Shown here one piece after another: positions 1 through 23,339 of a stretch of 64,000 nucleotides of DNA; positions within the stretch are counted from its first letter, which is position 1, and every line of letters begins with the position of its first letter. The notes beneath the pieces were generated by a model. That model saw nothing but the letters and a program-made list of their open reading frames with translations, ran no database searches and was not told the origin of the DNA. The DNA comes from Myxococcales bacterium 68-20 (GTDB lineage Bacteria; Myxococcota_A; Polyangia; Polyangiales; Polyangiaceae): NCBI GenBank assembly GCA_001899635.1, contig MKVQ01000004.1:438023-502022 (forward strand), written 5' to 3'. The position numbers and the translations under genes were made by a program.

Positions 1-834
1 TGCGTAGCCGGCTCCTGCCTCCTCGCTTGCGACGAGGAACATGCAGACTGCAACGGAATTCCTGATGACGGTTGCGAGACACTCGTCGCGGGGCCCTCGG
101 CCAACGACATCAACAACTGCGGCGCCTGCGGCAACGTCTGCACCGACATCTGTTCCCAGGGAGTGTGCGGCTGTCCGCCAGGAATGACGTTCTGCCCGGG
201 GGATGGGCAGTGCCACAACCTCAACCAAGAAGACGACAACTGCGGCGCGTGCGGCAACGTCTGTCCTCTCGACACCGAGCCTCCCTTCCCTCCCGAGTGG
301 AACGTCTTCCGCGGGTGCGTCGCCGGCCAGTGCAACAAGCCGAGGTGTCAGCCGTTCGTCCGTGATTGCAACGGTACCTTCGTCGACCCGGGGGCCGACG
401 GGTGTGAGACGTCGACGTTCTTCGACGTCAACAACTGCGGCGAGTGCGGGAAGGCTTGCGCCCCCGGCGAGAACTGCGTCTTCGGTGAGTGCCGCTGTCC
501 GTGCGGGGCGGTCTGCACCAAGGGCCTCGACTCGGACCCCAACAACTGCGGGACGTGCGGGGTGAGGTGTCCGGGCGACTGGAGGTCGGTGGAGTTCTCC
601 GCTCCGGTCTCGCTCGATCCCGCCCACGGCAAGCCCATCTGCGATCAGGGCGTCTGCGGGTACACGTGCTCCCCGCACTGGGCTGATTGCGACGGCGACA
701 TTCGCAACGGATGCGAGACCGACCTCCGAAACGATCCGCTCAACTGCGGAGGATGTGGCGTTCAGTGTGACGGCATCGAGGGCCAGCCCTGCATCGACGG
801 ACGCTGTCTCACGAAGGAGTGCGAGGTCCAATGA
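1..834 (+). CDS. Cys-rich NCGxCG-repeat secreted protein, 5'-truncated (cassette 1, gene 1)
   Basis: The open frame runs in from the left edge, so the start and any signal peptide are outside the window. The visible 277 residues are repeated modules with the pattern NNCGxCGxxC alternating with DCNG..DGCET motifs (for example NNCGACGNVC and DPLNCGGCGVQC). Such modules are common in secreted myxobacterial proteins and probably form disulfide-bonded surface repeats; no enzymatic motif is seen. The end of the protein (EGQPCIDGRCL) matches the end of the gene at 22200-23339, its paralogue in cassette 2. The stop codon overlaps the next start (ATGA), so translation is probably coupled to the four downstream lipoprotein genes. 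Ligand and function are unknown. Confidence 0.85.
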   Translation, partial: CVAGSCLLACDEEHADCNGIPDDGCETLVAGPSANDINNCGACGNVCTDICSQGVCGCPPGMTFCPGDGQCHNLNQEDDNCGACGNVCPLDTEPPFPPEWNVFRGCVAGQCNKPRCQPFVRDCNGTFVDPGADGCETSTFFDVNNCGECGKACAPGENCVFGECRCPCGAVCTKGLDSDPNNCGTCGVRCPGDWRSVEFSAPVSLDPAHGKPICDQGVCGYTCSPHWADCDGDIRNGCETDLRNDPLNCGGCGVQCDGIEGQPCIDGRCLTKECEVQ

Positions 835-2036
835 GCTCCATCAAGAAGCTCGGCACGAGCTCACTCGCGGTTCTTCTCGTCGCCGAGACTGCGCTCGCGT
901 GCGCAGGCGAGGGCGAGCTCGAGCCGGAGCGCGAGGGGGTGCCGGACGCTTCAGCTGAAGTCGCCGACGCAGGCGATGCGGGCGACGGCGCTGACGCGGC
1001 AGACGCAGCCGACGCAGACCCATGCAGTGCCTCGGGCCTGTGCATCGTCCCCGTTCCCATCGACACGCGGGTCAACGTCACCTCCGTATCGGGATCGGGC
1101 GCGAAGGACGTGTGGGCCGTGGGGACGGCTCGAACGATCCTCCACTACGACGGCGCCGTATGGGAGAAGGCCGACACGATCCCCTACGACGCAGCCCCGT
1201 TCACGATGCGCGCCGTCTGGGTCGGCGGGCCCAACGACGTCTGGGTCGCGGACGGACCGACGATCCACCACTCGACAGGATGGAAGGGCCCGAGCGCCAC
1301 GGTGTGGGAGTCGTCCGTCCTCGCCGGCACGTACACCGCGCCGACGGCGATCAGCGGCAACGACGGAAGAGTGATCATCGGACGCCAGATCTCGAATCAG
1401 TTCGACGACTACGAAGCGGCGATCGTCACGTGCAGCGGCTGGGACGCTGGCGGACTCCTCGAGCCGACGTACCTGGAAAACCGCCACTTCCGGACGAATG
1501 GAACGGACGGCCTCTGGTCGATCGCGATGACCGGACCGAATGAGGCGTGGGGAACGAGCTTTCCAACGACGAACGGGCCCGGCGCCCGAGTCGTCCGCGC
1601 GCACCTCGCGAGCCCCGGCGACGGCGGCGAACCGGACGCGGGACCGTCGTGGCAAGTCGAGGAGTACGACAGTCGTACGGAGAGAAACCTCTATGGTGTG
1701 TGGGGCGACGAGCAGGCCGTTTGGCTCGTGGGCGAAGGCGGTGTCATTCGCCGGATGACGCCGGCAAATCTTCCGTCGGGCGTCTTCGAGAACGTTCCGA
1801 GCCCGGTCATCGCCGATCTTCGCGGGATCTTCGGCTTCGGCGCAGACGACGTATGGGCCGTCGGCGACGACGCCACGGTGCTCCACTGGGACGGCAAGGT
1901 CTGGAGCAGGCTCGCGTCACCGTTCGACAGCGCTGCGGACAAGCCGCGACTCTTCTCCGTCTGGGGAAGCGCGCCGAACGACGTCTGGATCGGCGGTAAC
2001 GGAGTCATCCTCCACTTCGAAGGGAAGGCGCCATGA
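831..2036 (+). CDS. Propeller-like repeat lipoprotein A (cassette 1, gene 2)
   Basis: This 401-residue protein is exported. The N-terminus is a signal peptide ending near ALAC (Cys24), a slightly atypical lipobox, followed by an Asp/Ala-rich linker (DAGDAGDGADAADAADAD) and a CSASGLC motif. The body holds repeats of the form VWG..A.DVWAVG..G.I.H.DG.W, typical of bacterial beta-propeller-like (WD40/Kelch/BNR-like) surface proteins. ATG 831 was chosen over GTG 819 because it overlaps the upstream TGA and follows a GAAGGAG ribosome-binding site. The last repeat (NDVWIGGNGVILHF) is nearly the same as the end of the gene at 20992-22203, its paralogue in cassette 2. It is predicted to be envelope-anchored with a binding role; the partner is unknown. 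Confidence 0.85.
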   Translation: MSSIKKLGTSSLAVLLVAETALACAGEGELEPEREGVPDASAEVADAGDAGDGADAADAADADPCSASGLCIVPVPIDTRVNVTSVSGSGAKDVWAVGTARTILHYDGAVWEKADTIPYDAAPFTMRAVWVGGPNDVWVADGPTIHHSTGWKGPSATVWESSVLAGTYTAPTAISGNDGRVIIGRQISNQFDDYEAAIVTCSGWDAGGLLEPTYLENRHFRTNGTDGLWSIAMTGPNEAWGTSFPTTNGPGARVVRAHLASPGDGGEPDAGPSWQVEEYDSRTERNLYGVWGDEQAVWLVGEGGVIRRMTPANLPSGVFENVPSPVIADLRGIFGFGADDVWAVGDDATVLHWDGKVWSRLASPFDSAADKPRLFSVWGSAPNDVWIGGNGVILHFEGKAP

Positions 2037-3310
2037 GACTCACGCGCCGTACGAAGAGCCTCGCTCTTGCATTCATGTTCGCGCTTGGGCCGTCCTTCGC
2101 GTGCGCCACGGGCGACGACGAGCCCAAGGCGACACCGGCACCCGAGGTCGATCCGACTCCGCCCCTCGACGCAGCAGTCGCCGATGCCACCGATGATGGA
2201 CTGCCCCCGATGCCGAGCACGTGCAGTGCAGGAGGGTTCTGCTACGTGCGCTCGCCGTACCTCGGGCCGCTTCTCGCGGTCTCAGCGTCGAGCGTCGACG
2301 ACGCGTGGATGGTGCCCGAGCAGAGCGGTGCGCTGTTGCGGTGGGACGGGGCATCGTTGAAGCAGATCTACGAGTACGAGGGACCGACCCCGCCAAACAT
2401 CACCTTTTCGGGTGTCTGGGCGGAGACGAAAGACAACGTCTGGGCCGCGGCCATGGGGAGCGACGGTCACGTCGTCCTCGTGCGCTACTCGAGTCCCCCC
2501 GGTGGAGGCGCGCCGGCGTTCCGGGAGCTTCCGACACGAGAGTCGGCGACTGCGATCCTCGGCATCTGGGGGACGCCGGCGGGGGACACGCTCTGGATGG
2601 TGACGGATCGCGCCGTTCTTCGCGTCCGCGAAGACGAGAGCGGCGTCATCGTCGACAACCTCGTCCCATCGACCGACGCGGAGGACGCGGGGCAGTACTC
2701 GTGGCGTGGCGTCTGGGGCTTCGGTCCCGGCGATGTCTACGTAGCTGGACGGGTTTGTCCTTCCGACTACTGCGAGCCGAAGGACAGCTACGGCGCGATT
2801 GGGCACTACGACGGGACGAGCTGGTCGGTCACCACGATCGACTCCGCGAGCGATGTGCTGTCGCTTCGCGGCACGCCTCCTGGGACCGATCGCCGGCTCT
2901 GGTTCGACACCAGCGAGCCGAGCTCGCGGGAAGGAGACGGATCCATGACGACGTACGCCGAGAAAACGTACCTCGTTCCGATCACGAACGCGGGAGCGCC
3001 GGGAGCGCCTCTCTACTCGCACCCGGCGGACGTCGCCCCCGCGTGTAGCAACCGCGTGGGTCACGCGGCGGCGCCGACTTCGGCGTGGCTCTCGAGCGGC
3101 TTGCTCCTCTGCCGCTGGACGGGGACGAAGCTCGAGCCGGTGCAGACCTCTCCTGGCGCTCTTCCGGTAGTGGCGACGCTGAACGGGATCTGGGCCGGCG
3201 GTGCGGAAGACGTGTGGATCGTCGGTGCCGCCGTGACACGGGACGGTCTTCCGCCGCGAGGGTTCGCCGCGAGACGAACCGCGGCTACGGCTACGGGAGG
3301 ACAGCCATGA
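2033..3310 (+). CDS. Propeller-like repeat lipoprotein B (cassette 1, gene 3)
   Basis: This is a 425-residue exported protein with a signal peptide ending SFAC (Cys24), an acidic linker and a CSAGGFC motif, then degenerate blades such as DNVWAAAMGS, GVWGFGPGDVYVAG and GIWAGGAEDVWIVG. Repeats are fewer and longer than in the gene before it. It starts on the stop codon of gene 2 (ATGA) and its own stop overlaps the next start. The positional and sequence counterpart in cassette 2 is the gene at 19685-20995, which shares the CSA(A/G)G(F/W)C motif after the linker. It is probably a cell-surface beta-propeller-like lipoprotein. No catalytic residues are recognised and the function is unknown. Confidence 0.8.
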   Translation: MRLTRRTKSLALAFMFALGPSFACATGDDEPKATPAPEVDPTPPLDAAVADATDDGLPPMPSTCSAGGFCYVRSPYLGPLLAVSASSVDDAWMVPEQSGALLRWDGASLKQIYEYEGPTPPNITFSGVWAETKDNVWAAAMGSDGHVVLVRYSSPPGGGAPAFRELPTRESATAILGIWGTPAGDTLWMVTDRAVLRVREDESGVIVDNLVPSTDAEDAGQYSWRGVWGFGPGDVYVAGRVCPSDYCEPKDSYGAIGHYDGTSWSVTTIDSASDVLSLRGTPPGTDRRLWFDTSEPSSREGDGSMTTYAEKTYLVPITNAGAPGAPLYSHPADVAPACSNRVGHAAAPTSAWLSSGLLLCRWTGTKLEPVQTSPGALPVVATLNGIWAGGAEDVWIVGAAVTRDGLPPRGFAARRTAATATGGQP

Positions 3311-4668
3311 CCCTGCTCCGCGTCGGTCTCGGCTCTCTCTTCGTCGCTTCCTTCGTACCGCTCGGCTGCTCGTCGGCGGGTGGCGGTGCGGACAGTCCTG
3401 CATTCGATGGCGGCGTCGAGACCAGCCCGCCGCCTGCGTCCGCGCCTCCGCAAGACGCCGGTGCTCCGGATACGGGGCGAGCCGACTTCGTTCCGGCTTC
3501 ACGGCTCGCGGTCGCCTGCGCGGCGGAGCCTTGTTACGTCGCCGTCAGCGGCAACACGGGCGAGCACGTCTGCGGGCTCCTGAAGGACGGCTCCGTCCGC
3601 TGCTGGGGACGCGACACGCGGCCTCGAGCGGAGACGTCCCCGGACGAAGGCGAGCCGCAGGCTGACGGCGCGCTTGGTCGCGGCCGTGTCGTCTCGGCGC
3701 TCGAGGGCGCGACGCCCGCGCCGGTGGTCGGCTTGACCGGTGCAACGCAGATCAGCGTCGGCAAGAACCTCGGCACATGCGCGCGCACCGGAGACGGCTC
3801 CGTGTATTGCTGGGGCCGAAACGAATACGGCCAACTGGGCCGGCCTGCCGCCGAGGCAAGGCTAGCGGTGCCGACGCGCATCGAAGGATTGCCTCCCGTC
3901 TCGTCCGTCGCGCTCGGCGGAAGCACCGGCTGCGCGATCGCGTCCGCCGATGGCGCGCTCTGGTGCTGGGGCGCGCGCGATTCGAAGATCGGACGTGCGG
4001 CTGCGGAGGGCGAATCGATCTCGTTTCCGCCCCAGCTCATGACGGGGTTTCGGGCCCCCCTTCGGGAGCTAGCCATCGCTACGGTGCGCACCGCTCGGAC
4101 CATGCCGTTCGCGGACACGATCGTCGCCCTCCTCGACGGACGCATCCTCGCAAGCCTCGGCGAGCTCCCCGCGGGCGAGTCTTCTCAGCCTTGGAGCCCG
4201 GCGGTGCCGGTGCCATTCGAGCTGCACGATGTCGCGCGGATCGGCGCGTTCGGGTATCTCGGTAGCAACAGGGTGCTGTCGCGATGGGTGCCGGAGAGCC
4301 GTGCTCTCTACGTGCCGGCCCCGTACACGGTCGTCGATGTTGCGATCGCGGCCACGCAAGACGTGTGGAGCACGCTTCAAGTCGAGCAGGCAGGGGTGCT
4401 CCTCTCGAGCGGACGCCTCTTCCGCTGGGGTGTCAACGCAGCAGGTGCGCTCGGTTCCCCTGCCGACGAGCTCGATATCGCCGAGGAGCCACGCGACATG
4501 ACCCATGTCGCCGGCAATCGGGTCGTGTCGTTCGCGATGACGACCGCGTCGACGTGCGTCTCGCTCGTCGACGGCAAGGTCAAGTGTTGGGGGACGAACC
4601 AGCGCGGAGAGCTCGGACGCGGCACGATCGACGCCGAGGAGCACCCCGAAGCGGAGGAGATCCGATGA
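3307..4668 (+). CDS. RCC1-repeat lipoprotein (cassette 1, gene 4)
   Basis: This is a 453-residue lipoprotein: signal peptide, lipobox VPLGC (Cys21), Ser/Gly/Asp-rich linker, then RCC1 (regulator of chromosome condensation) repeats. They are recognised by HVCGLLKDGSVRCWGR, GDGSVYCWGRNEYGQLGR, ADGALWCWGA and DGKVKCWGTNQRGELG. RCC1 repeats form a seven-bladed propeller. In bacteria they occur on exported proteins and the nuclear role of the name giver does not apply. The frame is open further upstream, but ATG 3307 overlaps the stop of gene 3 and begins the signal peptide, so it is the start. The counterpart in cassette 2 is at 18346-19710. It is probably a surface binding module; the ligand is unknown. 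Confidence 0.87.
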   Translation: MTLLRVGLGSLFVASFVPLGCSSAGGGADSPAFDGGVETSPPPASAPPQDAGAPDTGRADFVPASRLAVACAAEPCYVAVSGNTGEHVCGLLKDGSVRCWGRDTRPRAETSPDEGEPQADGALGRGRVVSALEGATPAPVVGLTGATQISVGKNLGTCARTGDGSVYCWGRNEYGQLGRPAAEARLAVPTRIEGLPPVSSVALGGSTGCAIASADGALWCWGARDSKIGRAAAEGESISFPPQLMTGFRAPLRELAIATVRTARTMPFADTIVALLDGRILASLGELPAGESSQPWSPAVPVPFELHDVARIGAFGYLGSNRVLSRWVPESRALYVPAPYTVVDVAIAATQDVWSTLQVEQAGVLLSSGRLFRWGVNAAGALGSPADELDIAEEPRDMTHVAGNRVVSFAMTTASTCVSLVDGKVKCWGTNQRGELGRGTIDAEEHPEAEEIR

Positions 4669-6425
4669 AACGTGTCGCGTGTCCTCTTTTCGTCGTTGGA
4701 GCGATCTTCGCGTGCGGTGACCGCCAGGGCGGCTTCAATGATGACCGGCCGCCCCCCTTGGGCTCGGACGCAGGCGCGGATCCCATGCCGAGCTGCGAGG
4801 GCACTGTTCGCTGCGCGCGCGATCTTCGCTCGGTCGTCGACGGATGCGACGAGTCTCGCGTGATCAGCGCGTGTGCGCCGGACCAAGGCTGCGCCGACGG
4901 CAAGTGTCTCCCCGCTTGTGACGCTGCAGTCGGTGCCAATGCCACGATGGGCTGCGAGTTCGTCGCGCTTCCGCCGCCGCGCGTGGCCTTGACGGCCGGG
5001 TCGTGCTTCGCCGCCGTGCTCACGAACAGCTGGGAGGTCCCGGCGCAGATCGAGGCCGAGTACGAGGGCAAGCCGCTCGACATCGCGACGATCACGAAGA
5101 TCGTGCGCACGGACGGCGCAAACACCACGTACGAGCCGTTCGACGGAACGATCAAGCCGGGTGAAGTGGCAGTGGTATTCCTCGCCGAGCAGGCGAGCGG
5201 GATCGCGGCGGTCCCGTGTCCGGTCGGTACGACGGCGGCGATCAGGAAGGAAACGGCCGAGAACGGCACGCGGCGCGGCTCGACCTTCCGGATCAAGACG
5301 ACGGCGCCCGTCAGCGCCTACAGCATGTATCCGTTCGGAGGAGCAGCAAGCGCGGCTTCGACGAGCACGCTTCTCCTCCCGCTCGCATCGTGGAAGGCCG
5401 ACTACATCGTCACGAGTCCCTGGGAGATGCGCTACTTCGACGCCAACGATCCGTATTTTCCCACGACGCAGATCGTCGCGGCCGAAGACGATACGGAGAT
5501 CTCGGTCATCGGCAGCGTTCACATCGCGCAAGGCGCGGACGTCGAGAGCGCCGAGAAGGGCGTCACGAAGAAGTATCGCTTGCGACGCGGCGAGCAGATT
5601 CAGTTCTTTCAGGAGCAAGATCTGACGGGGACGCGCATCGGGGCGAACAAGCAGATCGGGGTCTGGGTCGGGCACCAGGGCATGGCCATCCCGACGACGG
5701 CCACGTGCTGCGGTGATTCCTCCCAGACGGCGCTCTTTCCCGTTCGGTCGTGGGGGCGCGAGTACGTCGCCGTTCCCTACCTGTCGCGCAGCCATGGAGA
5801 GGTCCCCGAACAGTACCTCTACAAGATCACCGGCGCCGCCGACGGCACGGTCCTCACGTACGAGCCAAGCCAACCAAAGGACGCACCGTCCTCGCTCGCA
5901 GCTGGCGAATCGCTCCTCTTCATGACGCAGGAGCCGTTCATTGTGAGGAGCCAGGACATCGAGCATCCGATTGCGCTCTTCTCGTACATGACCGGCGAAG
6001 CGTTTCCCCAAGCACAGGGCTACCAGGGAGATCCCGAGTTCGTGCCCGTGATTCCGACCGAGCAATACCTCGGAAGGTACGTCTTCTTCGCCGACACTTC
6101 GTATCCGAACTCACAGCTCGTCGTCGTGCGCTCGCGCGAAGAAGGCAAGGACTTCGAACCTGTCGTCCTCGACTGCGCCGGCCCGCTCGAAGGGTGGAAG
6201 CCCGTCGGCACGTCCGGCAAGCAAGAATACACGCGCATCTGGTTGACGAGGTTTGGGAACGCTCAACAGGTCGGCAGCGGCACGTGCGGAACCGGCCGCC
6301 GCGAGATCGACAGCCGTGGTCCGATTGCGGTCACCGTTTGGGGAACGCACCAGTTCGCGAGCTATGGCTATCCGGGTGGAGCGGCGCTCCGAACCATCAA
6401 CGCCGTCGAGTCGATCGTGAAGTGA
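4665..6425 (+). CDS. IgGFc-binding-type lipoprotein (cassette 1, gene 5)
   Basis: This is a 586-residue lipoprotein with Cys17 after IFA, a short Cys-rich region (about residues 40-90), then the domain annotated in databases as IgGFc_binding, after the N-terminal part of the human IgG Fc-binding protein. Family signatures visible are SAYSMYPFGG, SPWEMRYFDAND, AEDDTEISVIGS and GDPEFVPVIPTEQYL. Fc binding itself is not expected; in myxobacteria these are surface proteins of unknown role, plausibly adhesins. Translation is coupled to gene 4 by ATGA. No terminator hairpin was recognised in the 160 bases before the convergent gene. The paralogue in cassette 2 is at 16571-18349, and two more copies lie at 49657-53290. 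Confidence 0.88.
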   Translation: MKRVACPLFVVGAIFACGDRQGGFNDDRPPPLGSDAGADPMPSCEGTVRCARDLRSVVDGCDESRVISACAPDQGCADGKCLPACDAAVGANATMGCEFVALPPPRVALTAGSCFAAVLTNSWEVPAQIEAEYEGKPLDIATITKIVRTDGANTTYEPFDGTIKPGEVAVVFLAEQASGIAAVPCPVGTTAAIRKETAENGTRRGSTFRIKTTAPVSAYSMYPFGGAASAASTSTLLLPLASWKADYIVTSPWEMRYFDANDPYFPTTQIVAAEDDTEISVIGSVHIAQGADVESAEKGVTKKYRLRRGEQIQFFQEQDLTGTRIGANKQIGVWVGHQGMAIPTTATCCGDSSQTALFPVRSWGREYVAVPYLSRSHGEVPEQYLYKITGAADGTVLTYEPSQPKDAPSSLAAGESLLFMTQEPFIVRSQDIEHPIALFSYMTGEAFPQAQGYQGDPEFVPVIPTEQYLGRYVFFADTSYPNSQLVVVRSREEGKDFEPVVLDCAGPLEGWKPVGTSGKQEYTRIWLTRFGNAQQVGSGTCGTGRREIDSRGPIAVTVWGTHQFASYGYPGGAALRTINAVESIVK

Positions 6426-6587
6426 GGAGCGCGGGCGGCGCGCGCGGCATTGCCGCGTCCGCCGAGCGCATCGCATCCGACGTTCTGCTCGAGCCAAGCA
6501 ATGCGCGCGAGGCCGCGCCGGCTCCAGCGTCCGAACGCTGCCTTCGCGAGAGCGAGCAGCCGACCTTCCGTCCGATGACGGCCGAGG

Positions 6588-7409
6588 CTACTCGCTCTCG
6601 CGCGGCACGCGCAGTCCGGCTTCGGCTTCAGAGCGGTGCACCGTGCCGGGATGCAGCTCGAGCAGCTCGCGCCACGCGCTCGCTGCCTCGGACTTCCTAC
6701 CGAGCTTCGAAAGGATGCGTGCACGCGACGCGCGGGCCTCCTCGGCGAGAACGCTGCTCTTCCCGAGCCCGAGGTAGTGTTCGAACAGCGTCAGCGCAGC
6801 CAAAGGCTCGCGATCTTCGATCATGCGCCCGAGAACCACGTGAGAGAGCAGCGCCTCGGGAGACGAAGGCGCCTCCTGAATCAGCGTGCGATAGTCCGCC
6901 TCCGCGGCGGTGAAATCTCGCCGGCGCCGCTCCTCGTTCGCGCGCGCGAAGAGCTCTGCTGGCGAGAGCGTCGGCGCGGAAAGGGGTTGCGGAGGGGTGA
7001 GGGCCCGCTCCGAGCTCGCTCGCACGGCAGGAGCCGGCTTCGCGGCCGGTAAGTCGGCGACCGCGATCGTCGGGGGGGGCGTGGTCATCGACGTCGATGC
7101 TGCCGGTTCCGGATCGGTATCCGTCGCTTGCGGCGCGATCGGAGCAAGTGTCGCATGCTGTTCCGCAGGCGCGGCCTCTCCGGCGTTCCCGCGGTAGATC
7201 TTGGAGCCCAGGAGCGCGGCCGTGACACAGAGCACAATCCCGCTCGTCCACGTCGGGAGGATCCGATACACGGTCGGGCGGGCCCGGCTCGCGGCCAAGG
7301 CGCCCTCCGTGAGCCTTCGAACGCGCTCCTCGTCCCGGACGAGAGCGTCGCGGCTCTCCTTCCCCCAATGACGCTCGACGCGGCGCGCGAGCTCGTCGAG
7401 ATCATTCAT
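6588..7409 (-). CDS. Membrane anti-sigma-like protein with TPR-like C-terminus
   Basis: This 273-residue protein is encoded directly after the ECF sigma gene, overlapping it by eight bases; ATG 7409 sits within the last codons of the sigma gene. The N-terminal 45 residues are charged and helical (ELARRVERHWG, RRLTEGALAAS), as expected of a cytoplasmic sigma-binding segment. One membrane helix follows (about 50-70), then a Pro/Ala linker and a helical-repeat C-terminus resembling tetratricopeptide repeats (RRRDFTAAEADYRTLIQEAP). Such sigma-linked membrane proteins are common in myxobacteria and probably hold the sigma factor until an envelope signal arrives. A canonical zinc anti-sigma HxxxCxxC motif is absent. 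The counterpart in locus 2 is at 23365-24075. Confidence 0.75.
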   Translation of the reverse strand: MNDLDELARRVERHWGKESRDALVRDEERVRRLTEGALAASRARPTVYRILPTWTSGIVLCVTAALLGSKIYRGNAGEAAPAEQHATLAPIAPQATDTDPEPAASTSMTTPPPTIAVADLPAAKPAPAVRASSERALTPPQPLSAPTLSPAELFARANEERRRRDFTAAEADYRTLIQEAPSSPEALLSHVVLGRMIEDREPLAALTLFEHYLGLGKSSVLAEEARASRARILSKLGRKSEAASAWRELLELHPGTVHRSEAEAGLRVPRESE

Positions 7410-8109
7410 CGCCGTCTCCCCCTGGCTCGAGTGAATGAGTTGCACGTGCAGCGAGATCGGCGAGCCGGGGATCGGCCCCGATGCGCCGCACGAGGGCTTG
7501 GCGTGCGAGACGAATCCGGCTTCGCACGGTGTTGATTGGAGCGCCCGTGTGCCTCGCGACTTCCTCGAGGCTGTATTCGAGCACGGTACGAAGCAGGAGT
7601 GCCTCCGCCTGCTCGCGAGGAAGGTCCGCCATGAGCTCGGCGAGGAGTCTTCGCAGACCGACGTCGGCTCCTTCAGGCACGGGGCCCTCGGTGGCCTCCC
7701 GGAATTTCGAGAATCGCGCGAGCAGGCGGAAGCGTGTCTTCTCTCGGCGGAGCACGTTGAGCGTCGTGTGGACCGCGACTCCAACGGCGAATCGCTCGAT
7801 CGTGTGGTCGCGACATTCGCCGACGCGACGAATCAGCGTCACGAGGGAGCCCTGGACCGCGTCGTCGACGTCGGGGTGTCCGGCGCCGAGCATGCTGATG
7901 GCGACGCGGTAGACGATCGGTGCGACGGACTCGACGACCTCGCGGATGGCGGCCCCGTCGGCGTCCCGCACGGCTGCAGCGAACTCCTCGAGCGAGAGAG
8001 CCTTCCGCCGGTGCGCCGCATCCAGCACGCCACGAACGTTACCTCTCGGCGTGCTCTCCTGCTCGAGCCCGAGCATCTCGCCAGGGAGAGAGTGAGCCGC
8101 GCGCAGCAT
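7402..8109 (-). CDS. ECF RNA polymerase sigma factor (locus 1)
   Basis: This is a 235-residue sigma-70 family extracytoplasmic-function factor. Region 2 is seen in HPDVDDAVQGSLVTLIRRVG (core binding and -10 recognition), and region 4 in LPREQAEALLL followed by SLEEVARHTGAPINTVRSRI, the helix-turn-helix for -35 recognition. Regions 1.1 and 3 are missing, as in ECF factors. ATG 8109 is preferred to TTG 8112 because an AAAGGGGA ribosome-binding site stands six to seven bases upstream. It is followed by its overlapping anti-sigma-like partner and faces away from the barrel-like gene at 8340. Inference: it controls the adjacent surface-lipoprotein cassette and/or the divergent exported protein. 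Confidence 0.88.
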   Translation of the reverse strand: MLRAAHSLPGEMLGLEQESTPRGNVRGVLDAAHRRKALSLEEFAAAVRDADGAAIREVVESVAPIVYRVAISMLGAGHPDVDDAVQGSLVTLIRRVGECRDHTIERFAVGVAVHTTLNVLRREKTRFRLLARFSKFREATEGPVPEGADVGLRRLLAELMADLPREQAEALLLRTVLEYSLEEVARHTGAPINTVRSRIRLARQALVRRIGADPRLADLAARATHSLEPGGDGDE

Positions 8110-8339
8110 CAAGGTCCCCTTTCAAGCGCGAGCATTCCGTCGCCCGCCGGCTGCCTGGGGAACGCGGGGGAGCGAGGCATCAGCGTGTAGTGTCGGTCGA
8201 CCGTCGAGAGCGATCACTCTGCCGATCACGATTCGACGGCTTGCACTGAAGCTCTTCCGTGCTTGGCCGGGGAATTGGCTACGCCGCGCGCGACGCCTAC
8301 ACGGTCGTAAGGCGACAATCGCGACGTTAGACTCGGGGC

Positions 8340-9452: not shown

Positions 9453-9619
9453 CCCTCGACGTCGCGGGCGCTGAATGCCGACGTCTTCGCAGCGACGGCG
9501 AAGAGTGCCCCGACGCTGACGCCGTGGGACATCGATGCTCGGCGCACCAGACGAACGCCGCGACGATGGCACGTCGCGGCGTCACGTGGGATCGTGATCC
9601 GATCGTTCGCGCGTCGCGA

Positions 9620-14980: not shown

Positions 14981-15086
14981 CCCTCTACCTCCGTCGGGCG
15001 CCGCATGCAGCGTGCATGCCGCTCGAGCCATGCCGGAGAAACCACGGCAATTCCGGGATCTCGCAGCTTGCGAGCCTCGCGCCGCC

Positions 15087-16406: not shown

Positions 16407-16570
16407 CCGGAAGCCGTGTCGCTCAAGACTTCCGTCGAGCCAGGCGGGTCACTCGCCGATCGTCACGAACGACCTGAGAGCCACGCGGGCGGTCCTTGAC
16501 AAGCTGGACCGTGAGGCAGTCGTCGCTAGCATCCACGACGGTTGTCCGAACGTGAGTAGGATCGCGATGC

Positions 16571-18349
16571 TCAGCGAATGGGATCGAGCGGTGTCTTCAC
16601 AAGCCTGCGCTGCGCCATGCCCCCGGGATAGGCGTAGCTGGCGGCGAGGTCCCAACCCCACAAGGTCGCGGTGAACGGTCCCTCGCTCTTCATGCGCTGG
16701 AGCCCGTTCGTGCACGTGCTTTCGCCGAACTTCTGGCCGGGGCCCTTGTCCTTGGCGAGGTCGACGCGCGTGAACTCGAAGTCGCCCCGCGTCCCCACGG
16801 GGCGGAAGTCGGTCAGGTCACCTGCGCACTCGAGCCAAACGTTTTTGAATACACCGTTCGTCTTCGCGCGCACGATGACGAGCGACGTGTCTCCGTAAGT
16901 CGGATCCGCATAGAACGAGTAAGAGTCGAGATACTGCCCCGTCGGGATGACGTTGACGAACTCCGGGTCGCCGCGCCCCCCGTAGGACAGTCGCACGCCG
17001 TCACACCCGGTCATGTACGCGGCGAGATAAACTGGATGATCGGCGTCTTGCGTGCGAACGACGAAAGCATCGCCTGTCCCCGAACGAAACGTTACGACCT
17101 CGCCGGCGGACATCGTCGTGGGCGCGCCAGGGGGGACCGCAGGGTCGTACTCGAGGCGAGTTTCGTCGCGCGCGGCGAGGATGCGATACAGCATAGGCTC
17201 GTGCTCATTGCCGAGGCGAGGGCGATAGCCGACGCCCACGTACTCGGATCCCCATTGCTCGAAGGCGGGAATCTGCTGCTGGAGAGTGTCGCATGCCTTG
17301 TCGGAGCTCGGGACGTACGCGCAAGCGTGCCCGCCGAAGACCGTGGTCGGTTTGGTCGACGAGACGGTGCTGCCCGAGAGCTCCTCGAACTGGGTGATCT
17401 GGAGGTACTGCCCCTTGTCGATCCGATACGTCACTGGCACCTGACTCACGGTGCCCTTGATACCGACGCCGTCCTGGATGTCGCGCGTCGGCAGGATCGT
17501 CACCTCGGTGTCGTCCTCCGACGCGAGAATCTGCACCCCCGCGTTGCGTACATTCGACTCCCAGCCGTTCACCAGGATGTGCTGTCTCCCCCACGTGGCG
17601 ACTGGCAGGAGGAGCGACGCCGACGGAAGATAGCTCGACGCGCCGCCGAATGGGTACATCTGCGTGAGCCCCACAGGCACGTTCGTCTTCAATCTAAAGG
17701 CCGAGCCAACGCCCGTGGAGACGCTGACGTCTGCGAGGAGCGCGGGGACGACGCCATCGGGACACGCTGTGTGCGTGGAATCCAAGTCGCCCGCAGCACG
17801 CGTGACGTTCGGATCGCGATCGGATACGAAGAGAATCGCGCTCTCGCCCGGAGCGATTGGCCCCGCGTGACGGATCAACCTCGCTTCTCCCGGATTCGTT
17901 CGAAACATCGCTCCCGAGACGTCAAGTGCTTTGCCTTCGAGCTCGAGCGCAACCTCGACCGGTTGAGTCGACGTGTTCACGATGAACGTGGCAAAGCAAG
18001 ACTGCGGGATGGTCTGCGGGTCATACCGCGGTATTTGGAAATAGAACTCGCAGCCGTTCGAGCTCCGTGCGGCCGCCGCCGCCGCGCAGGGCTCCTGGCA
18101 CCCTCCCCCGCCGCAGGCCTTGTCCACCGCACATGTCTCGACGACCGCGCCGGTGCAACCGTCGATCACGGCGCGCCCGTCGAGCGAGCACTGGTGGGGA
18201 CAACCGGGAGGGCCGGCGTCGAGATCGAAGCCAGCGGGTGGCGGAGTGAATCCACCGCGCTCTTCCTTTTTGTTGCACGCGCCGGCGACTGCGAAGAGCG
18301 CCACCCCAAGGGCAGAGAGCCTCGCCGCACGAGGGACCCAGGAAATCAT
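16571..18349 (-). CDS. IgGFc-binding-type lipoprotein (cassette 2, gene 5)
   Basis: This is a 592-residue lipoprotein with lipobox AGAC (Cys25), a Cys-rich segment, then the IgGFc_binding-type domain with GLTQMYPFGG, LASEDDTEVTILPT and GDPEFVNVIPTGQYLD. It is the paralogue of the gene at 4665-6425: both have C..R.VIDGC-type Cys spacing before a GCEF motif, then (S)CFA(A/T)(V/F)(L/I), EGK.LD and the same final domain, ending in a SYGYPGG/SYAYPGG motif. ATG 18349 overlaps the stop codon of the RCC1 gene. It is the last gene of the minus-strand cassette and faces the radical SAM gene; no clear terminator hairpin was found in 16407-16570. Likely a surface protein; ligand unknown. Confidence 0.88.
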   Translation of the reverse strand: MISWVPRAARLSALGVALFAVAGACNKKEERGGFTPPPAGFDLDAGPPGCPHQCSLDGRAVIDGCTGAVVETCAVDKACGGGGCQEPCAAAAAARSSNGCEFYFQIPRYDPQTIPQSCFATFIVNTSTQPVEVALELEGKALDVSGAMFRTNPGEARLIRHAGPIAPGESAILFVSDRDPNVTRAAGDLDSTHTACPDGVVPALLADVSVSTGVGSAFRLKTNVPVGLTQMYPFGGASSYLPSASLLLPVATWGRQHILVNGWESNVRNAGVQILASEDDTEVTILPTRDIQDGVGIKGTVSQVPVTYRIDKGQYLQITQFEELSGSTVSSTKPTTVFGGHACAYVPSSDKACDTLQQQIPAFEQWGSEYVGVGYRPRLGNEHEPMLYRILAARDETRLEYDPAVPPGAPTTMSAGEVVTFRSGTGDAFVVRTQDADHPVYLAAYMTGCDGVRLSYGGRGDPEFVNVIPTGQYLDSYSFYADPTYGDTSLVIVRAKTNGVFKNVWLECAGDLTDFRPVGTRGDFEFTRVDLAKDKGPGQKFGESTCTNGLQRMKSEGPFTATLWGWDLAASYAYPGGMAQRRLVKTPLDPIR

Positions 18350-19710
18350 GGAAGCACCACCTCCTCGGGAACGAGGCTCTCGCCCCTCGATTTGCCGTTC
18401 CCGAGCTGACCGTAGAAGTTACTGCCCCAACAATAGACTTTGCCGCTCGTCGTGAGCGCGCACGTCGTATTCCAGGTCGTTTGCACGCTCGCGACGGGTT
18501 CGGGCAACGCGACGACGCGCACTGGCTCATGAACATAGTCCTTATTTCCGCTACCGACCTGACCGCTCTCGTTGAATCCAACGCAATACACCGCTCCCGA
18601 GAGCGTAGTTGCACACCATCGATAGGGTTGGATGATCCCACGATCGGTGGCGAGCGTGCGAGTCGTGCTTGTCGTCGCGATCTGGACTACGGGCTCGGGC
18701 ACGACGACGGGCTCCGGAAGCGCGCGGCCGATGGGAGGGTACGGGATGGGCTCCTCGGTAGATTTCGGAACGACTGCACCCCAACAGTACGCCGTGCCGC
18801 CCGCAGTCGCGCAGACGTCCGGGCCCGCGACGTCGACCGTCGAGACGCCAGGCACGCTCATCGGCGCCGGATACGGATCGGGGAACAGCGACGAGACGCG
18901 CCCGAGAGAAGGATTGTAGCCCCACGTGACCATCGCGCCGTCCTCGCGCAGGACGAACGTCGCGTAGCCGACCGCGATCCGGCGAACGGGCGCGCCCGGA
19001 GGCAGCGCGACCTGTCGTGGTGGATGTGTCCCCGCAAACGGCATCGCGGGACGCGGCCCCACCTGCCCCCACAAATTCTCGCCCCAGCACAGGATCCCAC
19101 CATCGACCGCTGCGCAGGCCGCCGTGCTGCCGACGCCGACGTGGGTGGCGGGCGGGATTGGAAGCTTCACCGGCACGCGCTCGGTGGACACCGCGCCGGC
19201 GTCGTCGCGAAGAAACGGACCCGTTCCCCAGCACCAGGTCGCGCCGTCCTCGTCGAGTGCACAGGTATGATCGAGCGCGACGACCTTCACGAGGCCATCG
19301 ACGCGCGCCGGCCTCGAACCGCTCCCGGCATCTTCGCCGCGCCCGAGCCGTCCCGAGCTGCTTGCCCCCCAGCACGCGACCGTTCCGTCGCGGAGGAGCG
19401 CGCAGAATCCCTCTCCGCGGTCGGAGTCCGTTTCGAGTGTCGTCACGAGCGCCGTCGCGCACGCGCCTGCTCCGCACACGATCGGGAGGGGGCTGGCGTC
19501 GACCACCCCCGCGTCGGACGCCACCGCAGGCTCGGAGCCGGCATCTTTCGGCGATCCGTCCAAGGAGGCAGCGTCGAGGCCCTCCTCGGTGCGCGCGCCG
19601 TCGTCATCGTCGTCGCTCGCGCAACTCGCAACCACGCCAGCCGCCGGGATCACGACGAACGCGAGGGTGACAGGCAAGCCCCGATCAAGGAGTCGTCTTG
19701 TGAAGTGCAT
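18346..19710 (-). CDS. RCC1-repeat lipoprotein (cassette 2, gene 4)
   Basis: This is a 454-residue lipoprotein. The signal peptide ends at VVASC (Cys30), followed by DDDDDG and an acidic linker. RCC1 repeats are visible as FCALLRDGTVACWGAS, DEDGATWCWG, VDGGILCWGENLWGQVG and SGKVYCWGSNFYGQLGNG, which should fold as a beta-propeller. ATG 19710 is favoured over TTG 19722 because GGAG lies six bases upstream; it overlaps the end of the preceding gene by 26 bases. It is the paralogue of the gene at 3307-4668. As there, it sits between propeller-like lipoprotein B and the IgGFc-binding-type gene, so the order has been conserved. Confidence 0.87.
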   Translation of the reverse strand: MHFTRRLLDRGLPVTLAFVVIPAAGVVASCASDDDDDGARTEEGLDAASLDGSPKDAGSEPAVASDAGVVDASPLPIVCGAGACATALVTTLETDSDRGEGFCALLRDGTVACWGASSSGRLGRGEDAGSGSRPARVDGLVKVVALDHTCALDEDGATWCWGTGPFLRDDAGAVSTERVPVKLPIPPATHVGVGSTAACAAVDGGILCWGENLWGQVGPRPAMPFAGTHPPRQVALPPGAPVRRIAVGYATFVLREDGAMVTWGYNPSLGRVSSLFPDPYPAPMSVPGVSTVDVAGPDVCATAGGTAYCWGAVVPKSTEEPIPYPPIGRALPEPVVVPEPVVQIATTSTTRTLATDRGIIQPYRWCATTLSGAVYCVGFNESGQVGSGNKDYVHEPVRVVALPEPVASVQTTWNTTCALTTSGKVYCWGSNFYGQLGNGKSRGESLVPEEVVLP

Positions 19711-20995
19711 AGCGAGCTCCAACCGCCCAGATGTTGTCCTTGGAAGTGCCCCGCACGCGGTAGATCGGATGGTCGAGCGGCGCGCCGGTCAGCGAGACGC
19801 TCGAGATCGCAAAGTCGGCTCTCTCGGCGCCGTCCGGAACGCCAAGTCCGCCGTGAACAACGAAGCCCCAGCCGCTGAGCCACGCCTCGTCTTGCTGAAA
19901 CCAGAGGGAGTTGAACCGAGGGTCCGCGTTCCGATTCGGAACCGAAGGAGGGGCGAGCGGCGTCAAATCAGCGGTGTAGCCGCCGTCTCCGGCCTCGATC
20001 TGCACGAGCGTCATCCTGTCCCAAAGACCGACGACGCTGCCTGGCCCGACCGACTGGACGTCGGTCAGCCAGCCGCGTCCGAGCCCCAAGACTCCGTCGC
20101 GCGGTAGACAAACTTGGGGGTCGAAGATCGAGACCACGCTGTCGACGACACGCCGATAGCCGTCGGCGGTCTTGCGACCGACGACACTACAAGAAAACCA
20201 GGTAATGAAGTCTCGGGCGCCGACAAACCACACATCGTCCTTGCCCGAGCCGCCCATTCCGAAGATCAAGACGTTGTCGAAATACCCCGGAGCAGGCGAC
20301 TCCGTATCATCCGCAACGTGATCTGCGACCCACACAAACTGTCCTTCCACGTGCGTCCGACGGAAGATCGTGTTCGCGTGCCACGCATAGACGTCGTCGG
20401 GCCCCGTGCCCCAAACGCCGAGCGTAGGATACGTTTGGATGGGCGCCCAGACGAAGTCTTCGCCAGGGGCGGGATGGTGGCTGTTGTCGGGCAGCCGAGC
20501 TCGCTCCCAGGACCACGTCGCCGAGGGATTCGCGCGCTTTCCGTAATAAATAAATCCCGGCGAGATACCGTAATAGACCTCATTTTCGTTCGGCGCCCAG
20601 ATCCTGCCTAGTTGTGGACCGAACCCGTCTTCGTTCTGTGTATCGTCGTCGATGTACTGCCACGTCGAGTCGTCAGCGCTCCACTCGAGAACCTTGACGC
20701 CGAGAGTGGGGCTCTCGGCGATCGCGAAGGCGTGGTCCGCGAGCGGCCACATGTCTCTCAGCGTCAGATTGCCGTCCGGCAATGCAGTGGCGCACCAACC
20801 GGCTGCGCTGCACGCCGGGGCGGGCCGCTCGGCGTCTTCCGACCGCGCATCCTTCGGCAGGGGCTGGGCCCCGCCGTCCGTCGATGGCGTGTCCGACTGC
20901 GCGCTCGGCGACAGAGGGTCGTCCTCTGCCGATGCGCAGGCAACGCCCGCGCCGAGCGCGACCGACACGCAGATGAGGATGAAGAGGCCTCTCAT
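19685..20995 (-). CDS. Propeller-like repeat lipoprotein B (cassette 2, gene 3)
   Basis: This is a 436-residue lipoprotein: signal peptide ending GVAC (Cys20), acidic linker, CSAAGWC motif, then weak repeats (RIWAPNENEVYYG, GVWGTGPDDVYAW, MGGSGKDDVWFVGA, VRGTSKDNIWAVGA). The pattern matches gene 3 of cassette 1, though sequence divergence is greater than for the other members. ATG 20995 overlaps the stop of the upstream gene (ATGA). The final residues overlap the next gene by 26 bases, the only long overlap in the cassette. It is predicted to be a surface propeller-like protein; binding partner unknown. Confidence 0.8.
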   Translation of the reverse strand: MRGLFILICVSVALGAGVACASAEDDPLSPSAQSDTPSTDGGAQPLPKDARSEDAERPAPACSAAGWCATALPDGNLTLRDMWPLADHAFAIAESPTLGVKVLEWSADDSTWQYIDDDTQNEDGFGPQLGRIWAPNENEVYYGISPGFIYYGKRANPSATWSWERARLPDNSHHPAPGEDFVWAPIQTYPTLGVWGTGPDDVYAWHANTIFRRTHVEGQFVWVADHVADDTESPAPGYFDNVLIFGMGGSGKDDVWFVGARDFITWFSCSVVGRKTADGYRRVVDSVVSIFDPQVCLPRDGVLGLGRGWLTDVQSVGPGSVVGLWDRMTLVQIEAGDGGYTADLTPLAPPSVPNRNADPRFNSLWFQQDEAWLSGWGFVVHGGLGVPDGAERADFAISSVSLTGAPLDHPIYRVRGTSKDNIWAVGARYALHKTTP

Positions 20996-22203
20996 GGATT
21001 TCCTCCGAGCGACAGAATGACGCCGTGGCCGCCGATCCAGACGTGACCCGGGCCCGGCGACCATACGGTGTAGAGGTCCGGCCGGCGCCGGCCGAGACCG
21101 GCGATCTTCACGCGCGACCAGGTGTCGCCGTCGTAGTGGAGGACGACGCCGGCGTTGCCGACAGCCCAGACGTCGGACGCCGAGGTGCCCCACACCGCGT
21201 TGAGATCCTCCGCCGTCGGAACGTCGACGATGTCCCAGACGACGGAATCTCCGCGGTAGTGCCTGACCACGCCGCTCGCGCCGACCGACCACACGTCGGA
21301 CGCCGAAGCAGCCCAGACGCCGTAGAGCGCGTTCCACGTCTGCGAGTTGAACGAGGTCACGGTCGTGGCGTCGCCGTCCGCGCCATCGACGCGAACGTTG
21401 GCGCCGACGTCGCCGACGGCCCAGATGGTGTCGACGGACAGACCGTAAACGCTCGAGAGTTGATTGCACGCGTGCGGGCAGTCGTCGCCCCGCACACCCG
21501 CTACGATCTCGAACCCCGAAGCCCCCGTCTTGCGCAAGCGCCAGAGGCCACTCGGGCGCGTCGGGGACGGGCTCGACCACTCTTCTTCATCCCACGTCGC
21601 AAGCCACAGCGAGCTCGCGGAAGGCGGCGCCCACGCTGCACGGAGCTGCTTCGGCCAGGCCCGCCTGAACTCCGCCGGCAAGGGAGGTACGGCGCGAAGC
21701 GTCCATCCTCCTGCGGACACACCTGCGTCGAGATCGCCGGTATCGAGGCCGCGCGTGTAGAGCCGCGCGAACGACCCGAGCACGATCTCGCCCGTGTCCG
21801 AGAGCCAGAGAGCGCGCTGCGTCTCATGCGAACCGAGATCGGACGTGCGCCACGACGTACCGTCGAAGTGAGCGACCGTACCGACGGCTCCCACCGCCCA
21901 GACGTCGTTCGCTCCACGACCACGAATGGCTCGGATCTGCGTGCGTAGGTCGATGCCGTCGGCGCCGCCGAAGAGCCCGTTCGGGCAGAGCACGTCCGCG
22001 CTGCACGTATCGGGGAAGAGCTCGCAGTCTTCGCACGGCGCATCGGGTTCGTCTTGCGCAACCTCCGAAGCGGCGTCCTCGAGCGTCACGGGAGGCACGA
22101 GAGGCACGAGGTCTCCGCTCTCGTCGGCGGCCGCGCACGCGCCGACCGTCGAAGCCGACGCAGCGACGCTCGCCGCGACGAACAGCCATCTTCGTCTCAT
22201 CAT
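20992..22203 (-). CDS. Propeller-like repeat lipoprotein A (cassette 2, gene 2)
   Basis: This is a 403-residue lipoprotein with lipobox VGAC (Cys23), an acidic linker and CSADVLC, then clear repeats: GRGANDVWAVGAVGTVAHF, VYGLSVDTIWAVGDVG, VWAASASDVWSVGASGV, VWGTSASDVWAVGNAGV and a closing GHVWIGGHGVILSL. The regular spacing fits blades of a beta-propeller. It is the counterpart of 831-2036, with the same closing repeat. Two adjacent ATG codons stand at the start; the first overlaps the stop of the Cys-rich gene. Probably envelope-anchored; function unknown. Confidence 0.86.
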   Translation of the reverse strand: MMRRRWLFVAASVAASASTVGACAAADESGDLVPLVPPVTLEDAASEVAQDEPDAPCEDCELFPDTCSADVLCPNGLFGGADGIDLRTQIRAIRGRGANDVWAVGAVGTVAHFDGTSWRTSDLGSHETQRALWLSDTGEIVLGSFARLYTRGLDTGDLDAGVSAGGWTLRAVPPLPAEFRRAWPKQLRAAWAPPSASSLWLATWDEEEWSSPSPTRPSGLWRLRKTGASGFEIVAGVRGDDCPHACNQLSSVYGLSVDTIWAVGDVGANVRVDGADGDATTVTSFNSQTWNALYGVWAASASDVWSVGASGVVRHYRGDSVVWDIVDVPTAEDLNAVWGTSASDVWAVGNAGVVLHYDGDTWSRVKIAGLGRRRPDLYTVWSPGPGHVWIGGHGVILSLGGNP

Positions 22204-23339
22204 CGCGTAATGCCTCCGGCGTCCGGATCACAAGGCTCGACCATACATTTGCCCCCGACACAGGCCTGGCCAGCGACCGCGTCGCAAGTGTTACCGCAAG
22301 CCCCACAGTTGTTCGGGTCCGCGTCCGTATCGGTCTCGCAGCCGTCGGCGGTGTTGCCATTGCAGTCAGCCTTGCCGCTCCAGCATTGCAAAGTGCAGAC
22401 GCCGTAGAGGCACGCCTCGGCGCCGCCCTTCTTGGTGAGGAACCTGCAGCTGTTCCCACATGCGCCGCAATTGAAGAAGTCCGACTTGAGATCGTAGCAC
22501 TCGCCGTTGCAGAACGTCTTGCCCGGCTCGCACATGCACGTGCCCACCCCCTGGTAGAGCCGGCACTCCTGCCCCGCTGGACACGCGAGCCCGCAGCCTC
22601 CGCAGTTCTGATTCGTCATGAGCGACGCCTCACATCCGTTGGTCACGTCGCCATCGCAGTTACCCATTCTCTCGACGCATTTGAGCGCGCCACATTGACC
22701 ACTGCTGCAACCGTAGTAGGCGTTCGGATACGAAGGCGCCCCTCCGTTCGTCGAGTCGCAGACGTTCCCGCACCCGCCACAGTTCTTGTCGTCCGCCTTC
22801 GGATTTACGCAGGGGATTGGGCTGTTCGCGCAGTAGACTTGAGGTGACTTGCAGCCACAAACGAACTCGGACGATATGTTGAGGCACGGCTTGTCGGGGT
22901 CGGGGCATTTCTTCCCGCACCCGCCGCAGTTATCGTTATCGCTCTTGGCCTCGCATCCGTTGTCTGGAATGCCGTCGCAGTCGTAGTTTCCTTCTTGGCA
23001 TGACAGCACGCACGCACCGCCAAGGCACTCGTAGCTTTCCTTGGTCGTTTCCTTCGGACACGCCGCGCCGCAGGCGCCGCAGTTGTTCATATCCGTGTTC
23101 AGATCGACGTCGCACCGGAAGCGCGAGGTCGGGCAGGTCGTGTGACCTGCGGGACATGCGCTCGACGGGCAGTACGTGATGAGCCCGGCATCGGCTTCGC
23201 CCGACGCACCACCGTCCGTCGGAATCTGGAACGAAGGCTGTTCGGGCGGCAGCGTGAACTCGACCGTCTGTCTTTGGCAGGCAATGAGCGCAACGAATGC
23301 GGCCACGACCCATGCTGAGCCATGAATGGGTAGTTTCAT
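22200..23339 (-). CDS. Cys-rich NCGxCG-repeat lipoprotein (cassette 2, gene 1)
   Basis: This is a 379-residue lipoprotein, complete, with signal peptide and lipobox LIAC (Cys21). The mature protein is a run of modules with NNCGACG, NDNCGGCG, DKNCGGCG and NPNNCGACG-type motifs, interspersed with DCDGIPDNGCE and NCDGDVTNGCE. It carries well over forty cysteines, so an extracytoplasmic, disulfide-bonded fold is expected. It supplies the complete version of the truncated paralogue at 1-834; both end EGQ/AGQ.C..G.C. It starts 25 bases after the anti-sigma-like gene and ends on the start of the propeller A gene, so it links the regulatory and lipoprotein parts of the locus into one transcription unit. 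Confidence 0.88.
   Translation of the reverse strand: MKLPIHGSAWVVAAFVALIACQRQTVEFTLPPEQPSFQIPTDGGASGEADAGLITYCPSSACPAGHTTCPTSRFRCDVDLNTDMNNCGACGAACPKETTKESYECLGGACVLSCQEGNYDCDGIPDNGCEAKSDNDNCGGCGKKCPDPDKPCLNISSEFVCGCKSPQVYCANSPIPCVNPKADDKNCGGCGNVCDSTNGGAPSYPNAYYGCSSGQCGALKCVERMGNCDGDVTNGCEASLMTNQNCGGCGLACPAGQECRLYQGVGTCMCEPGKTFCNGECYDLKSDFFNCGACGNSCRFLTKKGGAEACLYGVCTLQCWSGKADCNGNTADGCETDTDADPNNCGACGNTCDAVAGQACVGGKCMVEPCDPDAGGITR

Follow-up and report, generated by a model that had tools for sequence, protein, structure and literature searches.

We report here on a stretch of 64,000 nucleotides from Myxococcales bacterium 68-20 (contig MKVQ01000004.1, positions 438,023 to 502,022; the whole stretch is called the window below) that carries two copies of a five-gene lipoprotein cassette, and on the large family of cassettes to which these copies belong. 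In order, the five genes encode a cysteine-rich protein (C), two beta-propeller proteins (A and B), an RCC1-repeat protein (R) and an IgGFc_binding protein (I), and in its usual complete form the unit comprises seven mostly overlapping genes on one strand, in which an extracytoplasmic function (ECF) sigma factor and a single-span tetratricopeptide repeat (TPR)-like protein precede C-A-B-R-I. The reading that we favor, and regard as probable but well short of established, is that the five genes are an exchangeable surface-receptor block, copies of which are plugged into approximately 120 private ECF addresses, with a function that would lie in recognition or sensing. A farther-reaching version, which we put forward only tentatively, is that of a combinatorial surface-receptor system, in which each of more than 100 private ECF switches would have its own matching N-terminal tag on the first lipoprotein, any of more than 100 five-protein blocks could be recombined with them in frame, and sensing specificity and transcriptional switch would evolve independently.

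An earlier note on this DNA, made from the letters alone, had described the cassette as an old duplication present twice. Open reading frames (ORFs) and Pfam matches bear out the same series C-A-B-R-I in both window cassettes in the order given there, as well as the overlaps at the junctions (four bases in seven of the eight, 26 bases at the B-R junction of cassette 2) and the large divergence of the copies (identity 30% for A and 19% for B). The end motifs proposed to link the copies hold in part, VWIGGNGVIL/VWIGGHGVIL being present in A while cassette 2 A has CSADVLC and not the expected CSAxGxC. What falls is the number two. A search of the window genome (G000; 11.9 Mb in 52 contigs, with completeness 98.4% and contamination 4.2%) for PF17517 returned 141 matches; the surroundings of all of these were taken (1.95 Mb), ORFs were called in them, profiles of our own were built for the five families, and matches on the same strand were clustered. 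Because the A and B profiles match each other's families, both propellers were counted as P, the first being A and the second B. The genome carries 128 clusters beginning with C, spread over 35 of the 52 contigs and divided 67 to 61 between the strands, and their spans total 895 kb, or 7.5% of the genome. The C-P-P-R-I order is uninterrupted in 120 of them (CPPRI 111, CPPRIR 6, CPPRII 2, CPPRIRR 1); one cluster each is CPPPRI and CPPRRI, and six lack one gene or more (CPRI 3, CPPI 2, CPI 1). Clusters without C at the front are few (lone I 7, II 2, R 2, P 1). Four-base overlaps are the rule at C-A (116 of 128) and A-B (117 of 125) and common at R-I (83 of 125), and at B-R an overlap of four bases (37 of 125) stands beside one of 26 bases (38 of 125), so that the odd overlap of cassette 2 represents one of the two lengths commonly seen there. 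The copies are unlikely to stem from a mixture of strains or from duplicated contigs, as the top identity between any two of them is 0.91 in any one gene.

The same block is found in a second species of the genus, represented by a metagenome-assembled genome (G003), where 20 loci were read of 45 scored, giving 18 CPPRI, one PPRI at a contig end and one CPRI. The five genes also share one history within the window genome. Across the 120 uninterrupted cassettes, in which pairwise identity has a median of 27-44% and a maximum of 91%, Mantel r between the family distance matrices is 0.82-0.94, the permutation maximum being at most 0.16 (500 permutations per pair), and of the 36-48 splits that have strong support in one gene tree 27-42 are recovered in another, with only 0-5 contradicted per gene pair. 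The tree of A and B shares 50 of 55 supported splits with that of R and I (one contradicted), and the C tree shares 27 of 31 with the tree of the other four (two contradicted); the single nearest neighbor is the same between block genes less often, in 55-76 of the 120. This agreement of the five gene trees argues that the block moves as a unit. Both checks suggested by the earlier note, co-occurrence of the families as a fixed-order block and congruence of their trees, thus came out in its favor, and the chance clustering of abundant lipoproteins that it named as the alternative is ruled out by copy number, fixed order and the second species.

The row of genes does not begin at C: cassette 2 is part of a longer gene row that reaches to 24650 and includes a sigma gene and a putative anti-sigma gene. 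An ECF sigma-like gene stands upstream on the same strand in 121 of the 128 cassettes of the window genome and in 16 of the 18 of the second species, and that of cassette 2 scores 82.6 bits against TIGR02937 (cut-off 42.9), with PF04542 and PF08281 both above cut-off (regions 2 and 4). Between sigma and C, all 121 and all 16 of these loci encode a TPR-like protein with a median length of 255 residues, whose gene overlaps the sigma gene by four bases in 111 of 137 cases, which has a hydrophobic segment in 123 of 137, and whose C-terminus is TPR-like by inspection. Judged from its sequence and setting, this protein is probably the anti-sigma factor of its sigma. The family is also wider than the block: among 12 genomes of the genus it had matches in 11, including genomes where A is absent (in G005, eight matches at E 0.001 and four at E 1e-10). 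In a survey of cargo at 28 of 30 TPR loci (38 matches in all) in six sister genomes, covering up to 1.5 kb behind the TPR gene, a sigma-like ORF preceded 24 of the 28 genes and a lipoprotein-like start followed within 500 bases in 22; three of these 22 cargo lipoproteins are C-type and some others propeller-like.

Comparison of the sigma/TPR pair with the block that follows it, made over 113 cassettes of the window genome, gives the finding on which our reading turns. The sigma factors and TPR proteins are diverged among copies (median identity 0.32 and 0.28), and their distances correlate with each other at r 0.65 while either correlates with the block at only r 0.04-0.10. The sigma and TPR trees share 21 of 33 and 14 of 21 supported splits, with four contradicted each way, whereas a tree of sigma and TPR together shares 1 of 42 strongly supported splits with the A+B+R+I tree and is contradicted in the other 41. 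At the level of single pairs, sigma identity is at most 0.38 in all 18 block pairs with identity of 80% or more, blocks of 80-89% identity following unrelated sigma factors, and the blocks behind the six sigma pairs at 70% or more are between 31% and 72% identical. By these sequence comparisons block and sigma appear clearly to have reassorted, and the family trees indicate an exchange of these sets of predicted surface proteins between switches, like a large interchangeable wardrobe for the cell surface. One locus of the second species (G003 L252) looks like such an exchange: its sigma factor (87%), TPR protein (68%), C N-terminus (77% over 62 residues) and upstream neighbor all match one address, while its lipoproteins are closest to the block of a different address (82%). 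That nearest block belongs to a close-copy group that includes the first address, the number of synonymous substitutions per synonymous site (dS) being about equal to both, and the locus is therefore suggestive, not final, for block replacement at an orthologous locus.

The same pattern could arise without any reassortment if sigma and anti-sigma had been duplicated together with the block and had then diverged far faster, an explanation to which the shortness and divergence of the two proteins and a weak residual association of sigma with block lend something. The five G003 loci with matching partners allow the rates to be compared, and there the TPR protein does diverge faster (identity 52-74%), but sigma identity is 79-89% where that of the block is 70-85%, so that sigma is not faster than the block. 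The large agreement of the sigma and TPR trees further shows that their signal has not been lost, even though the block contradicts nearly all of their joint splits. On both counts faster divergence of sigma in place of exchange is largely rejected, and we consider it very hard to believe.

The ends of the exchangeable unit were mapped by DNA homology in the 60 closest block pairs, with identity down to 0.67. Homology sets in at a median of 15 bases upstream of the codon for the first cysteine of the C domain (quartiles -46 and -4, extreme -1498), and its other end lies at the I stop codon (median 0, quartiles -4 and +4; extreme +1500). Since the start falls inside a gene, C looks chimeric. 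In the 77 of 113 cassettes where the C N-terminus could be read, its local score per residue is 1.38 for 37 pairs with sigma identity of 0.6 or more, 0.61 where sigma and block are both distant, and 0.57 for 8 pairs whose blocks are identical at 0.8 or more, so that the segment goes for the most part with sigma and TPR protein. Of 98 C N-termini, 63 have a short motif, [LIVYF]G within mature positions 3-14, which A, B, R and I show in only 7-14 cases out of 111-119; the maximum in 200 shuffles is 29, and the motif recurs in 11 of the 19 other, non-C-type cargo lipoproteins of the sister genomes. We assign this tag to the sigma/TPR system rather than the block. By inference from the whole family, the signal peptide and linker of cassette 2 C would then be part of the sigma/anti-sigma module.

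A number of observations weigh against the picture of stable switches and moving blocks. Some of the correlations of sigma or TPR protein with the block, low as they are, just exceed the maximum of 200 permutations; sigma pairs at 0.6-0.7 have a median block identity of 0.47, compared with 0.33 for distant sigmas; and sigma and block partners coincide in 9 of 16 G003 loci. The C N-terminus correlates with block identity too (0.17, against 0.28 with sigma), and in the 21 pairs whose block identity is 0.7 or more its score per residue is 0.78. The [LIVYF]G pattern is loose and was picked after the sequences were seen, it is absent from 35 of the 98 C N-termini, and in G003 it is present in 4 of 8. 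Seven of the 128 clusters are without a same-strand upstream sigma gene, one of them starting at a contig end and cassette 1 being another. Neither Pfam nor NCBIfam gave a match (E 0.01) to the TPR protein of cassette 2, the one copy upstream of a cassette that was scanned, and the putative anti-sigma role of this copy is assigned from position and membrane span. Finally, no common ECF promoter was found upstream of the sigma genes.

The precise ends and the 128 copies on many contigs and both strands would also fit a selfish or neutral element, a block spreading by its own mobility or by drift with no coordinated function. By Pfam the block contains no mobility gene. Near cassette 2, a TnpB-like and a transposase-like ORF each match only themselves in the 1.95 Mb of cassette neighborhoods, and among the genes downstream of I none is shared by more than 6 of the 128 clusters; the check covered these two seed ORFs and the clustered downstream flanks, terminal repeats being judged by eye only. 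Within that scope a mobile element carrying the block is unsupported. Against the same explanation stand the purifying selection on the block genes described below, the placement of 121 of 128 copies behind a sigma/TPR pair, and the persistence of cassettes between species, since 11 of the 18 G003 cassettes have a single window-genome cassette as sister with support of at least 0.99. We regard a selfish or neutral origin as very unlikely, and homologous recombination between copies would be the simplest mechanism of the exchange that we propose.

The single sisters also imply that much of the repertoire predates the split of the two species. Within the genus the A profile has at least 145 matches in the window genome (among the best 150 candidates), 46 in G003, 13 in G006, 2 in G009 and 1 in G011, and none in seven further genomes; in short loci the C-P-P order is present in all nine read from G006 (of its 13), both from G009 and the one from G011. 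Outside the genus, near full-length A was found only in G061 and G092 among 377 sampled genomes of the phylum (best 5 or 13 candidates per genome), G061 (E 6e-40) having a propeller and, after it, RCC1 at the start of a contig, and G092 being weaker (E 1e-29); the other matches outside the genus (47 of the 377 genomes have matches) are mostly partial propeller repeats. A one-protein search of wider genome contigs returned one strong match, to Labilithrix sp. ACE_MYX5, which is G003, and four weak ones. In G004, locus L175 has R next to I where the A profile finds nothing; this genome is 72% complete, and the locus may be a partial block or reflect missing data.

For the 24 closest pairs the median ratio of nonsynonymous to synonymous substitution rates (omega) is 0.32 for A and I, 0.40 for R and 0.42 for B, values of purifying selection which indicate that the block genes are kept under rather loose constraint. 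Between the closest copies in the genome dS is near 0.3, and between orthologues of the two species it is 0.29-0.76; by this similarity exchange looks slow or old. Such loose constraint, together with a large, diverged repertoire and in-frame exchange between fixed ends, could also be the mark of a variable surface coat that alters what phages, predators and kin see, the sigma switches selecting which coat is worn. A coat of this kind seems improbable to us. There is no evident silent library, as a sigma gene stands upstream of nearly every copy, and there are no very recent copies by either identity or dS, though assembly could collapse copies that are identical.

Turning to the proteins themselves, the window copies of R and I match the Pfam families RCC1 and IgGFc_binding far above cut-off, C matches Stig1 weakly, and A and B have no Pfam match. 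Structural models of cassette 2 A and B, with predicted local distance difference test scores (pLDDT) of 86.7 and 85.1, are beta-propellers whose best match in the PDB by Foldseek is Ycf48 (E 2.8e-10 and 7.8e-9 respectively), so that each block would carry three propellers, counting the RCC1 protein with A and B. C has 47 cysteines that are invariant in 25 aligned copies; no solved relatives of C or I were found by sequence search, and none of the seven cassette 2 proteins matches a PADLOC model of anti-phage defence. All ten window block proteins score as lipoproteins by a rule of our own, and a lipoprotein-like start is present in 597 of 645 block genes by our own score, which is not SignalP and was also used in choosing start codons. 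The residue at +2 is Lys in 2 and Asp in 3 of 566 block lipoproteins; for comparison, PMC3222651 gives Lys at this position for 8 of 12 Myxococcus xanthus lipoproteins of the inner membrane. With a lipobox and hardly ever a +2 residue of inner-membrane retention, the block proteins are predicted outer-membrane lipoproteins, and from these lipoprotein signals the five are predicted to stand together on the cell surface.

We hypothesize the following course of events for the favored reading. The seven-gene row would be one operon, and the approximately 120 sigma/TPR loci would be stable addresses of which the block is the moving part. The TPR protein would hold its sigma factor as an anti-sigma factor, while the three propellers, the disulfide-rich protein and the IgGFc-type domain, displayed as a complex, would bind cells or polymers. 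The N-terminal segment of C, with a mature motif near Cys-x(3-7)-V-x-[LI]-G, may be the contact that relays this surface event to the TPR protein, and the event would free the sigma factor, which could then turn on its own operon. Exchange of the block would wire a new recognition surface to an existing private switch. An ECF sigma factor and a membrane protein ahead of lipoprotein genes, in many copies, is also what would be seen if each operon encoded a polymer- or nutrient-binding complex that is induced by its own substrate in the manner of SusCD, with sigma as the substrate sensor. We consider such binding or uptake units unlikely, though not negligible, for the five window block families include no enzyme, porin or transporter by Pfam or NCBIfam, the flanks downstream of I supply no recurrent partner, and the wide reassortment of sigma and block fits poorly with strict substrate-specific induction.

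The components of these loci, and the theme of ECF-controlled surface operons, are already known. The SusCD polysaccharide-utilisation loci of Bacteroidota that have ECF/anti-sigma pairs likewise come as numerous paralogous operons for surface lipoproteins within a genome, every one under a regulator of its own, but the window blocks have no SusC, SusD or glycan enzymes, and here the phylogenies of sigma and cargo disagree. Exchangeable coding blocks with fixed junctions are familiar from the sites and cassettes of antigenic variation (VSG, pilin, vlsE), which differ from the present case in its lack of an evident silent library and in the unit being five genes. We know of no case in which a multi-gene block passes from one sigma address to another with a junction that lies within a gene, and no such block or comparable modularity was recognised in searches of open-access literature, most subscription papers lying outside that scope. 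Polymorphic lipoproteins in a social predator are also known from TraA/SitA outer-membrane exchange and the polymorphic lipoprotein toxins of myxobacteria (PMC5562445, PMC8546572), whereas no toxin or TraA family is among the Pfam and NCBIfam matches of the block proteins. Cassette 2 C matches the profile of MXAN_6577-like cysteine-rich proteins (NF041328), at a score under its cut-off. There is a formal likeness to FecI-FecR-FecA cell-surface signalling (see PMC11637429), which combines an ECF sigma factor, a membrane anti-sigma factor and a surface protein, much as a surface protein would here signal to the anti-sigma; the five window block proteins include no TonB-dependent receptor, and the cassette 2 TPR protein no FecR-type match, by Pfam and NCBIfam. 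Some 128 five-gene units in one genome, 121 of them preceded by a sigma gene, and the reassortment of switch and cargo make up a scale and form of modularity that had no counterpart in the open-access searches. If our reading is true, the genome holds a natural library of sigma/anti-sigma pairs with swappable receptors, and the long-standing question of what predatory, social myxobacteria do with so many ECF sigma factors and lipoproteins would come within reach of experiment; under the farther-reaching version, a new recognition surface could be rewired to any switch. Coordinates of the features in the window are collected in Table 1.

Table 1. Genes and inferred segments of the two window cassettes, in window coordinates.
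Feature	Coordinates	Strand	Evidence and remarks
Cassette 1 C, Cys-rich STIG1-like lipoprotein	1..834 (start 347 bases before window)	+	Stig1 below cut-off
Cassette 1 A, beta-propeller lipoprotein	831..2036	+	fold by relation to A model
Cassette 1 B, second beta-propeller lipoprotein	2033..3310	+	fold by relation to B model
Cassette 1 R, RCC1-repeat lipoprotein	3307..4668	+	PF00415, PF13540
Cassette 1 I, IgGFc_binding lipoprotein	4665..6425	+	PF17517, E 1.5e-84
TPR-like protein paired with adjoining ECF sigma gene, downstream of cassette 1 on the opposite strand	6588..7409	-	TPR families; start read from ORF translation
ECF sigma factor downstream of cassette 1, opposite strand	7402..8112	-	PF08281, PF04542, TIGR02937
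Cassette 2 I, IgGFc_binding lipoprotein	16571..18349	-	PF17517, E 1.1e-103
Cassette 2 R, RCC1-repeat lipoprotein, 26-base overlap with B	18346..19710	-	Pfam RCC1
Cassette 2 B, Ycf48-like beta-propeller lipoprotein	19685..20995	-	model and Foldseek
Cassette 2 A, Ycf48-like beta-propeller lipoprotein	20992..22203	-	model and Foldseek
Cassette 2 C, Cys-rich lipoprotein	22200..23339	-	Stig1 just above cut-off; NF041328 87 bits, cut-off 100
Cassette 2 C, part ahead of first domain cysteine (signal peptide, linker); putative part of sigma/anti-sigma module	23172..23339	-	Cys57 invariant in 25 aligned copies
Cassette 2 putative exchangeable block, C domain to I stop	16571..23171	-	limits inferred from the family's 60 closest block pairs
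Putative anti-sigma factor of cassette 2, membrane span, C-terminus TPR-like by inspection	23365..24075	-	4-base overlap with sigma gene
ECF sigma factor upstream of cassette 2	24072..24650	-	TIGR02937, E 2.4e-23; PF08281, E 7.8e-15

The ECF repertoire of the window genome is very large, and part of it has other cargo. There are at least 150 Sigma70_r4_2 matches (among the best 150 of 443 candidates), and at least 147 matches of the TPR family (among the best 150 of 557 candidates) compared with the 121 that stand before a cassette. PMC3696898 reports 109 sigma factors in Sorangium cellulosum So0157-2 and gives its four largest paralogue families as kinases (648), sigma factors and related proteins (188), transporters (113) and secondary metabolism (97), and PMC3035250 reports 15 RCC1-type genes in Haliangium.

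Several genes near the cassettes may be recorded here. In nine clusters of the window genome further genes follow I, one or two of RCC1 type in seven (CPPRIR 6, CPPRIRR 1) and a second I match in two (CPPRII). The window holds two more IgGFc-family genes in tandem (49663-53293, minus strand), which are low-scoring and have no cassette around them. No upstream same-strand sigma gene was found for cassette 1. Just upstream of the cassette 2 sigma gene lies a TnpB/IS605 OrfB-like gene (PF01385, PF07282; 25972-27408, minus strand), and the ORF that adjoins it (27405-27962, minus strand) is one that we take to resemble a transposase. Between the two window cassettes there is a DUF2330 protein (13499-15109, minus strand). 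A family of proteins of approximately 350 residues (seed G000 C33:76127-77167) recurs in the flanks of 47 of the 146 cassettes of both species (128 in G000 and 18 in G003), with 45 of its 52 matches upstream on the same strand.

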